Assembly (NCBI GenBank): GCA_017473115.1
Contig: JAFUNC010000001.1
Location: 1-64,000 of the forward strand
Source of the DNA: Lachnospiraceae bacterium
Lineage (GTDB): Bacteria > Bacillota > Clostridia > Lachnospirales > Lachnospiraceae
Direction of reading: 5' to 3'
Length of the DNA stretch: 64,000 bases
Positions 7,592 through 59,627 of this stretch are shown in pieces. A program made the position numbers and the translations under genes. The notes under the pieces are model-generated. The model had not been told where the DNA came from. It searched no databases and saw only the letters and a list, made by a program, of their open reading frames with translations. How positions within the stretch are numbered: position 1 is the stretch's first letter; each line of letters begins with the position of its first letter.

Positions 7592-7644
7592 CTCTGCTTT
7601 TTTATTCTTTTATAAAATTAAATCGTTTATTTTTCGTAAATGTT

Positions 7645-7787
7645 GTGTGAATCTTTTTATTTCATAAAGAACCGTTTTCAACAGCGTCAGTACTTAACGA
7701 GCAGAACTGTAACGTACTGCGAGTTTAGTACTGCTACGTCTGTGGAACGAGCGAGAGCGTGTTCTGTTGAAATAAAAAGATTCACAC
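7645..7787 (+). repeat. 145-bp structured palindromic element, copy 1 (candidate RNA)
   Basis: Perfect 20-bp outer stem (7645-7664 with 7768-7787), extended imperfectly toward 7608 and 7813. Inside, the core shared with the copies at 38664 and 59441 reads CGTTTT (7673-7678), GCGTCAGTACTT, TAGTACTGCTACGT and CGAGCGAGAGCG. GAAC (7669-7672) can pair with GTTC (7761-7764). GC-GAGA-GC (7751-7758) forms a GNRA tetraloop hairpin, and tandem GA mismatches flank the apical GCAG/CTGC stem; both point to plus as the sense strand. No protein gene is inside. It fills most of the 459-base gap between the HMA gene and the MoxR operon. Confidence 0.75.
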
Positions 7788-7951
7788 CACTCTCAAAAAC
7801 GAATTTTATAAAAAGTATCAAAAAAATACTTTCTTTTGCAACCTTTTTGCATTATACTTTGTTTTATAAGTAGAAGCGAACAAAAAAGTATTGTAAAAAA
7901 CACATTTACATACAGGAATCGCATTTAACATAAACAGATTGGAGAAGCAGT

Positions 7952-38510: not shown

Positions 38511-38663
38511 AATAGTATGTATCCCCTTGAACACATCCGCTACCTTGTCGCGTTTAGATTTTTTGTAAGTTTAAGATATCACACTTTTAGATAAAAATAA
38601 ATACCTTTTTACCAATAATAAACAAATTGACACGAAATAAAAAAAGGAGGTTTTATATGGAGA

Positions 38664-38811
38664 ACAAGAGTAAATCACCTTATATATGTTCTCACGGACG
38701 CTTCCGCTCGCTTATGTCACGTAACGGTACATAGGATTGCAAAAAACGCAATCCAAGTACCGACGGTCATAAAACGCCGCTCGAACAAAATATAAGGTGA
38801 TTTGCTCTTGT
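38664..38811 (-). repeat. 145-bp structured palindromic element, copy 3 (candidate RNA)
   Basis: 22-bp outer stem (38664-38685 with 38790-38811; one mismatch or wobble) whose sequence is unrelated to the outer stems of copies 1 and 2. In minus orientation the core reads CGTTTT, CCGTCGGTACTT, TATGTACCGTTACGT and CGAGCGGAAGCG, matching the other copies. The tetraloop is GGAA (GAGA in the others), the apical stem is GGATTGC/GCAATCC, and the GAAC/GTTC pair of the others is swapped to GTTC/GAAC. All these are structure-preserving changes. Confidence 0.72.
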
Positions 38812-38850
38812 GCTTAGATAAAAACACTTGATCATATAATTATCTAAGCA
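38811..38850. repeat. 11-bp perfect inverted repeat beside element copy 3
   Basis: TGCTTAGATAA (38811-38821) and TTATCTAAGCA (38840-38850) separated by 18 bases. It abuts the outer stem of the element; no T-run. Function unknown. Confidence 0.5.
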
Positions 38851-59351: not shown

Positions 59352-59440
59352 TCTCTTCTCCTACTAAAAAAAGCGAAATGCTTAACACTTCGCTCAAAAA
59401 AATAATCCCGATTTGCTGATTTAGTTTCCAACATTAACTA

Positions 59441-59585
59441 CTGTGTGGATATTTTTATTCCATAAGGAACCGTTTTGAATGCGTCAGCACTTAATGAGCA
59501 AGAAGTATTTCTTGCGAATTTAGTACTGCTACGTATTCAATCGAGCGAGAGCGCGTTCTGTTGGAATATAAAATAATCCACACAG
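59441..59585 (+). repeat. 145-bp structured palindromic element, copy 2 (candidate RNA)
   Basis: Outer stem (59441-59462 with 59562-59585) extended by a further imperfect stem (about 59406-59425 with 59600-59621, TCCCGATTTG paired). Core reads CGTTTTGAATGCGTCAGCACTT, shown here in two parts: CGTTTTGAAT and GCGTCAGCACTT, then TAGTACTGCTACGT and CGAGCGAGAGCG, near-identical to copy 1. The apical stem is GCAAGAA/TTCTTGC with loop GTAT, and TTGAAT pairs with ATTCAA where copy 1 has TTC-ACAG/CTGT-GAA: changes on both sides that preserve pairing. It occupies the gap between the rRNA methyltransferase and pfkA. Confidence 0.75.
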
Positions 59586-59627
59586 CACGCTTGTACTAAA
59601 AACAAATCACCAAATCGGGACTACACC

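Follow-up and report, generated by a model that had tools for sequence, protein, structure and literature searches.

Three intergenic places in one 64,000-nucleotide stretch of a Lachnospiraceae genome, referred to here as the window, share a folded architecture whose paired segments change together, and the question is what kind of entity such a fold belongs to. A reading made from the sequence alone offered three candidates: a new small-RNA class, a non-autonomous mobile element, or a relative of HEARO/omega-type RNAs. What emerges is a family of short non-coding elements that seemingly has not been described before.

A covariance model (R1) built from 22 copies in the window's own genome matches all three places, so they belong to a single family with one architecture; they are 3 of 46 matches genome-wide. 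The copy at 38664 lies on the opposite strand relative to the other two, and the common architecture appears when it is read on the minus strand. The features are as follows.

7642 to 7664, plus strand: copy 1 inner stem, left arm, pairing with 7768-7790 (inverted-repeat list, 23 nt, 96%)
7666 to 7765, plus strand: copy 1 conserved core, a three-way junction (covariance model, 103.3 bits)
7751 to 7758, plus strand: copy 1 GC-GAGA-GC tetraloop hairpin, loop at 7753-7756 (sequence reading and pair counts)
7768 to 7790, plus strand: copy 1 inner stem, right arm (inverted-repeat list)
38661 to 38685, minus strand: copy 2 outer stem arm, its sequence unrelated to copies 1 and 3 (25 nt, 92%)
38693 to 38783, minus strand: copy 2 conserved core (covariance model, 65.4 bits)
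38700 to 38707, minus strand: copy 2 GC-GGAA-GC tetraloop hairpin (minus-strand reading)
38790 to 38814, minus strand: copy 2 outer stem, second arm (inverted-repeat list)
59403 to 59427, plus strand: copy 3 distal (TIR-like) arm TAATCCCGATTTGCTG..., pairing with 59599-59623 (inverted-repeat list, 84%)
59441 to 59458, plus strand: copy 3 inner stem, left arm, pairing with 59568-59585 (inverted-repeat list)
59464 to 59559, plus strand: copy 3 conserved core (covariance model, 92.2 bits)
59545 to 59552, plus strand: copy 3 GC-GAGA-GC tetraloop hairpin (sequence reading)
59568 to 59585, plus strand: copy 3 inner stem, right arm (inverted-repeat list)
59599 to 59623, plus strand: copy 3 distal (TIR-like) arm, second (inverted-repeat list)

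The arms of copy 2 and copy 1 rank first and second among the 23 inverted repeats of at least 15 nt in the window, and the two arm pairs of copy 3 rank 4 and 12. The distal arms of copy 3 reach a pairing score of 33 against a maximum of 20 in 100 shuffles, and the region 7620-7815 has folding energies of z = -8.2 as RNA and -6.8 as DNA. Much of the sequence-only reading holds: the outer stems of the three copies are unrelated in sequence yet paired, the apical stems all differ, and the tetraloops are GAGA in copies 1 and 3 and GGAA in copy 2. The reported swap of GAAC/GTTC for GTTC/GAAC compared non-equivalent positions and has to be dropped; in the 38664 copy the stretch is part of the outer stem and not of P1. 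The span given for copy 1, 7645-7787, was in the right place but slightly narrow (the inner stem covers 7642-7790), and copy 3 was drawn too short, a further arm pair lying outside it at 59403-59427/59599-59623. No reverse transcriptase, transposase or HNH domain is found in the six nearest sketched open reading frames (ORFs) of the window, as had been noted; these are housekeeping genes, encoding an HMA-domain protein, a MoxR-type AAA ATPase, a SpoIID-domain protein, an aconitase family protein, a SpoU methylase and a phosphofructokinase.

Across the family, the architecture from the outside inward consists of a distal arm of about 18-25 bp in some copies, a spacer of about 10-18 unpaired bases on each side where it is clear, an inner stem of about 20-25 bp, and the core. 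The core begins with P1 (GAAC/GTTC, elsewhere GGAC/GTCC and others), followed by a 2-bp helix with the variants CG/CG, TG/CA and GG/CC. Inward of this helix, UUUU stands opposite AA, and a helix that is variable throughout comes after it; next are CGUC/GNUACG with a 2-nt bulge, GGUAC/GUACC, and a UUA/UA loop. Many core copies contain a YGAR/YGAR tandem G-A step following this loop. A small GNRA hairpin sits at the junction, and the core fold as a whole is a three-way junction. One copy in G019 (L322:249-303, contig 12) is a natural deletion variant in which the apical half of the core (P3 and the loop) is gone and P1, the GNRA hairpin and the paired arms are kept.

The fold is specific to one strand and is maintained by compensatory change, as the sequence-only reading had proposed. 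In the 22 own-genome copies, 95.4% of cells are paired, changes on both sides occur at 23 of 28 pairs, and there are 117 two-sided cells compared with 33 after shuffling and 5-20 when partners are slid. The same holds for 89 matches from 80 loci of other genomes (535 two-sided cells versus 157 shuffled and 38-92 slid; 94.9% paired), an alignment that was fitted to the model and so leans toward structure. The family is therefore not a set of three copies with no further covariation: the 46 matches in this genome and the 89 elsewhere covary.

The fold corresponds to no catalogued family in the searches made. Rfam reports no family in the window at the gathering cut-off, and in a search of Rfam 15 up to E = 5 at 14 loci the sole match over cut-off is a tRNA away from the element; the comparison with Rfam that had been proposed thus gives no family over cut-off on any element examined. 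Sub-threshold matches at element edges are ctRNA_pND324 (L028, 34.2 of the required 45 bits) and BTnc005 (L003, 19.4 of 174.8), neither of which covers the whole core. The suggested relation to HEARO/omega RNAs finds no backing: there is no HEARO match up to E = 5 at the 14 loci, and, judged by similarity clusters, no nuclease recurs as a neighbor among 124 flanking ORFs of 66 copies or among the own-genome ORFs. No description of the element was found in the largely open-access literature searched, and the element's sequence strings turned up only in work on unrelated subjects, judged by title.

The element is abundant and largely confined to one bacterial family. The 46 model matches in the window's genome (G000) come from a 2.23-Mb assembly that is 85% complete; there, a search by blastn alone recovers 27 distinct places when copy 1 is the query and 7 when it is copy 2, self included. 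With the covariance model, 26 of 30 sampled congeners are carriers, with 0-58 matches each, and the first sample as a whole had 28 carriers in 61 genomes, these being the window's genome, the 26 congeners and one genome of another genus. An even draw of 250 genomes across the family gave 99 carriers, in 98 of 249 genera (per-genome match numbers that reached 16 in this survey are to be read as at least 16). Class-wide, 9 of 391 genomes are carriers at E <= 1e-6, and all 9 belong to the window's own family. The exact core pattern occurs in at least 118 stretches from named genomes; among the 80 matches listed, the titles are mostly of Lachnospiraceae or related clostridia, together with a few MAGs titled as other groups that may be mislabeled. 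Viral contigs gave no instance of the exact core pattern, and single copies compared by blastn with phage and plasmid sequences found no match. In G134, contigs 26, 38, 46, 48, 54, 60 and 96 terminate within or right beside an element, a sign that short-read assemblies probably fail at very recent copies and that copy numbers are likely underestimates.

Relative to the 46 own-genome cores, flanking genes in a mechanical ORF sketch are arranged --16, ++14, +-8 and -+8. Elsewhere, 66 of the 89 matches were examined for context; the 58 copies with both flanks called are arranged --26, ++15, -+10 and +-7, and the excess of -- over ++ is not significant (p = 0.86 in the own genome, 0.12 in the others, 0.15 combined). 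Placement is mostly intergenic and neutral to orientation. At about 150-230 bp the element has no room for a gene of its own, yet mechanical ORFs of at least 90 aa span 7 of the 46 own cores and touch 5 more, and 6 of 66 other-genome cores lie inside such an ORF. Three of the core-spanning ORFs (E36, E42 and E43; 342-348 aa) may be upstream run-ons of a neighboring gene whose own ATG is located beyond the element. Only two similarity clusters of neighbors recur among the 66 copies, with four and three members, and by eye these are an ABC ATPase and an aminoacyl-tRNA synthetase. The lack of orientation bias, along with so little recurrence of neighbors, makes cis-regulation unlikely. Two other ideas were set aside: a replication-strand bias, as orientations are mixed on most contigs by eye, and CRISPR-like guides, as the arms pair with one another. 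The spacer before the enolase gene (L112:8430-8862, G000 contig 2) holds two elements of different type in opposite orientation; both are kept in G001 and only one in G019.

In related genera the element takes the form of a miniature transposon, roughly 205 bp in size. In several of these genomes it measures about 202-210 bp and ends in TAGGYAATTGCGAAACTC and its reverse complement. The terminal inverted repeat (TIR) end is found 23-87 times per genome, against 0-3 for the reversed control, in six of six genomes of related genera. Direct repeats of 9-14 bp (score of at least 7) flank 16 of 43 end-pairs in these genera, and mismatched flanks reach an equal score in about 0.1% of control comparisons. 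The core is present by a script pattern in 14 of the 16 end-pairs with such target-site duplications (TSDs), and additionally by the model in L126. At L332, L333, L334, L340 and L341 the ends lie 81-151 bp apart and have no core by the script pattern; the L334 end-pair is flanked by a duplication of 12 bp that agrees at all but one position, so movement of the ends alone, with no core between them, may occur.

An autonomous element with matching ends was also found. In G062 (L367:592-2361, contig 20), a complete IS1182-like insertion sequence (IS) with a 491-aa transposase has ends that match the element's within 2 and 3 mismatches, and it is flanked by a perfect 11-bp target duplication, TCATTTTAACC. 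Its transposase scores 47.9 bits with DUF772 and 70.8 bits with the IS1182 model, far under that model's cut-off of 270, so the label can only be IS1182-like. No core is apparent in this IS when read by eye. The search for transposases in the TIR-type genomes covered one Pfam family (PF01609) and eight fetched loci; a transposase with matching ends came from only one of the six genomes, and seven of the eight loci have no ends within 4 mismatches on both sides. Relatives of the IS are carried on plasmids of Butyrivibrio proteoclasticus and Roseburia, and in Agathobacter in pieces; on B. proteoclasticus pCY360 (L374) two copies of a related IS are separated by 14 bp and bordered by CATTTATTTAT repeats. 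The shared inverted ends, the TSDs and the IS with matching ends bear out, for related genera, the earlier suggestion of a non-autonomous mobile element.

The window's own genus presents a different picture. The IS1182-like transposase is shown as the element's partner in other genera only. Within the genus, a full-length transposase with matching ends is present in G002 and a partial one with a stop in G025, both of which have no cores; G021 has a transposase fragment and G007 a weak match, with 3 cores each. No IS1182-like transposase was found in G000 or in G001 (58 cores), and DDE_Tnp_1 matches are absent from G000, G001 and G027. MAGs often lose insertion sequences. The transposase family Y1_Tnp (PF01797) is absent from G000, G019, G027, G146 and G134; it is present in G001, G076 and G190, and its presence does not track element copy number. 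By eye, no TSDs are recognized around own-genome copies. The TIR-like arms are diverged in the window's genome, where only part of the copies resemble AGTCCCRATTYGTTT; that pattern has 43 matches against 8 in the control, and no transposase-sized pair was noticed among them. The own-genome family is old and often inherited in place.

What sets the element apart is that the core and the arms need not travel together. In G146, eight copies drawn from the top-scoring rows of 15 matches have cores that are 99.4% identical, and their arms are 63-70% alike at 10-20 nt (63% on the left), 53% at 20-30 nt on the left, and about 40%, or background, beyond 30 nt. Within each element the left and right arms nevertheless agree at 74-79% over the first 30 nt, and the arms of these eight retain a weak common similarity close to the core. 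Among copies in the window's genome, 27 pairs share at least 93% identity over the core; similarity in their flanks is 80% within the first 10 nt, 68% at 10-20 nt and about 44% between 20 and 60 nt, the last compared with 37-43% for unrelated pairs. Near-identical cores thus stand between differing arms in two genomes. G001 yields only 3 pairs at this level of core identity, and the similarity of their flanks declines less steeply (0.55-0.57 at 20-60 nt versus 0.37-0.45); copies in G134 look like whole elements with similar arms, so both patterns exist.

The ortholog set comprises 31 pairs at 25 loci, comparing G000 with fetched parts of G001, G019 and G027. At copy E23 versus G001, the flanks and inner arms are 95-98% alike, the core is 82% alike and the P2 helix has been exchanged; E33, E30 and E10 versus G001 resemble this case, and E18 versus G027 is unchanged. 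The core has therefore been replaced in place at several orthologous sites. Mean identities over all pairs are 82% for the core, 79% for the inner arms and 75% for flanks (30-100 nt); the core is on average no more diverged than its surroundings, so in-place replacement is shown for some loci only. A paralogous core from the same genome is closer than the ortholog in 23 of 31 pairs, a count that takes the best of about 45 paralogs with no formal null and is inflated by sub-family structure. The inner stems at these sites carry 47 two-sided changes that keep Watson-Crick pairing in 676 pairs, against about 4.5 expected if the sides changed independently (assuming that one in three chance pairs fits; 113 inner-stem pairs were lost to gaps). 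One-sided changes are 10 G-U, 14 A-C and 55 other mismatches. The core can spread without the arms, and the arms are locus-specific.

The reading preferred here, with a probability of roughly 0.55, is a family-wide non-autonomous mobile DNA element of the MITE type with a proposed mechanism for arm pairing and core spread. Terminal (distal) inverted arms are followed inward by a palindromic stem that is long and specific to its locus, and the conserved core, about 100 nt in length, stands at the tip. Pairing of the arms may be kept by hairpin-templated synthesis that copies changes across them, or by selection at the DNA level. The core would spread by recombination or gene conversion between copies, probably beginning when an extruded hairpin is cut or stalls replication, although gene conversion between stretches so short and imperfectly matched would be out of the ordinary. 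Recognition of the folded single strand by a protein, either a transposase or a host factor, may depend on the unpaired bases that the core conserves.

A structured RNA aboard a mobile element is a less probable account, one in which the core is transcribed and acts in trans or in cis, either as a selfish guide-like RNA or as one that the host has adopted, with selection acting on the fold at the RNA level. If selection acts on RNA from a given strand, G-U should outnumber A-C among the noncanonical pairs. The arms show no such wobble preference: G-U/A-C counts are 18/22 in own inner arms, 25/51 in own distal arms scoring at least 26, and 65/79 elsewhere (70 elements). This favors a DNA-level hairpin, and the arms are read as strand-neutral DNA palindromes. 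The core differs, with G-U 62 versus A-C 16 in the 89 other-genome matches (40 of the 62 at three pairs), which indicates a strand-specific fold that could be RNA. The GNRA loop variants, the tandem G-A steps with covarying flanks, the bulges and internal loops fixed on one strand, and the strong RNA folding energy all speak in the same direction. In the own genus, however, the core has 22 G-U (1.3%) and 17 A-C in 1713 cells, 15 of the A-C at one pair, compared with 18 G-U (6.6%) and no A-C in 272 pairs from 13 tRNAs in fetched parts of G019, a small control in which ARAGORN's own model may disfavor A-C. DNA with GNNA-type loops, which are stable, could also look like an RNA fold. The core fold, tied to one strand yet short of wobble pairs, is read here as no less likely to be folded single-stranded DNA than RNA. 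The lack of an Rfam family over cut-off on an element, of a recurring neighbor gene and of an orientation bias also weighs against an RNA, and the new small-RNA class offered by the sequence-only reading is at most a candidate.

Structure-directed insertion is an equally tentative alternative. Here the mobile unit would be the core plus about 10-20 nt on each side, entering or being exchanged at existing hairpin tips, and the arms would be host or older hairpins, with stem-loop replacement as proposed for IS1272. Near-identical cores within different paired arms, and similarity that falls 10-20 nt outside the core, speak for it, and in the portion of PMC5678879 drawn on here IS1272 targets inverted repeats irrespective of their sequence. 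Sites that lack the core in a relative bear directly on it. In G019, 21 queries have flanks no more than 150 bases apart, several naming one site, and the 14 core-free sites read show mostly short replacements and no clean junction. A plain hairpin with partly similar arms replaces the element at two G019 sites, upstream of enolase and opposite G001_L382, compatible with insertion into a hairpin or with a loss that left one. By eye, just the site opposite G001_L382, of the 14 read in the survey, shows such a hairpin, and a matching one is absent from the other 13. The weak similarity of the G146 arms near the core and the whole-element insertions with TSDs in other genera also count against it, and replacement at occupied sites fits conversion at least equally well. 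In the few copies inspected by eye, no direct-repeat spacers suggestive of loop duplication were seen. A bolder form, improbable to a similar degree, is a 'homing hairpin': a module of about 110 bp, folded as a single strand, which would copy itself onto hairpin tips throughout a genome independent of arm and gene, recognized by its fold and only occasionally provided with transposon ends.

The remaining candidate, an ordinary host regulatory element (a terminator, 5' UTR regulator or mRNA stabilizer) repeated by chance, has in its favor the mostly intergenic placement and the enolase pair, both copies of which are kept in one congener, but is very improbable and largely refuted by the lack of orientation bias and of a recurring gene, the range of 0-58 copies among congeners, and the TSDs and TIRs in relatives.

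The mobile-element reading places the family among MITEs, bcr1-like structured repeats, REPs and candidate mobile or repeat sequences. Integron attC sites, where a folded single strand is recombined by IntI beside cassettes, provide an analogy. MITEs mobilized by IS1182-like elements are likewise short, with inverted ends and TSDs in common with an autonomous element that bears the transposase. The element differs from them in its family-wide conserved folded core of 100 nt, unrelated to the IS, and in arms that differ by locus yet pair, with similarity fading 10-20 nt outside the core. In the part of PMC2267715 drawn on, bcr1 and other stem-loop repeats are like the element in being dispersed, about 150 bp long and of predicted structure, with features of mobile elements; bcr1 is described there as restricted to one species group (Bacillus cereus), and neither a three-way-junction core nor an uncoupling of core and arms is mentioned. 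IS1272, assigned in the excerpted text of PMC5678879 to the IS1182 family and described as targeting inverted repeats whatever their sequence, shares with the element a broad transposase family, the involvement of hairpins and paired ends. By the same partial account, newly inserted IS1272 has no duplications, in contrast to the 9-14 bp ones of the element's MITEs, and it replaces stem-loops; hairpin replacement is only a candidate for the element.

Two further groups invite comparison. MRSC-65-2, as far as the sections of PMC11109978 drawn on describe it, is likewise present dozens of times per genome, covaries strongly, keeps no set orientation to genes and has a structure possibly relevant as DNA. 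It consists of one long stem bearing a UYCCGG repeat and occurs in diverse phyla, whereas the element has a branched core and a model that matches within one family only. The REP/RAYT palindromes tagged GTAG or CGTC (PMC3733652, in part) are repeated extragenic sequences, and the element also contains CGTC and TACG; REPs are 20-40 bp there, the element's CGTC lies inside a helix, and the window's genome has no Y1 transposase. What differs from all of these, and is seemingly new, is the combination of a branched family-wide core, paired locus-specific arms and spread of the core without the arms.

A branched fold matched here by no Rfam 15 model is thus carried by about 40% of the sampled genomes of this family. 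The element offers a natural system for asking how pairing survives when, within a genus, both sides of a stem change at one locus, and whether the structure of a nucleic acid is enough by itself to drive the spread of DNA in bacteria. It also carries a caution: covariation, even when very strong, can be the mark of a mobile DNA hairpin and not of an RNA gene.
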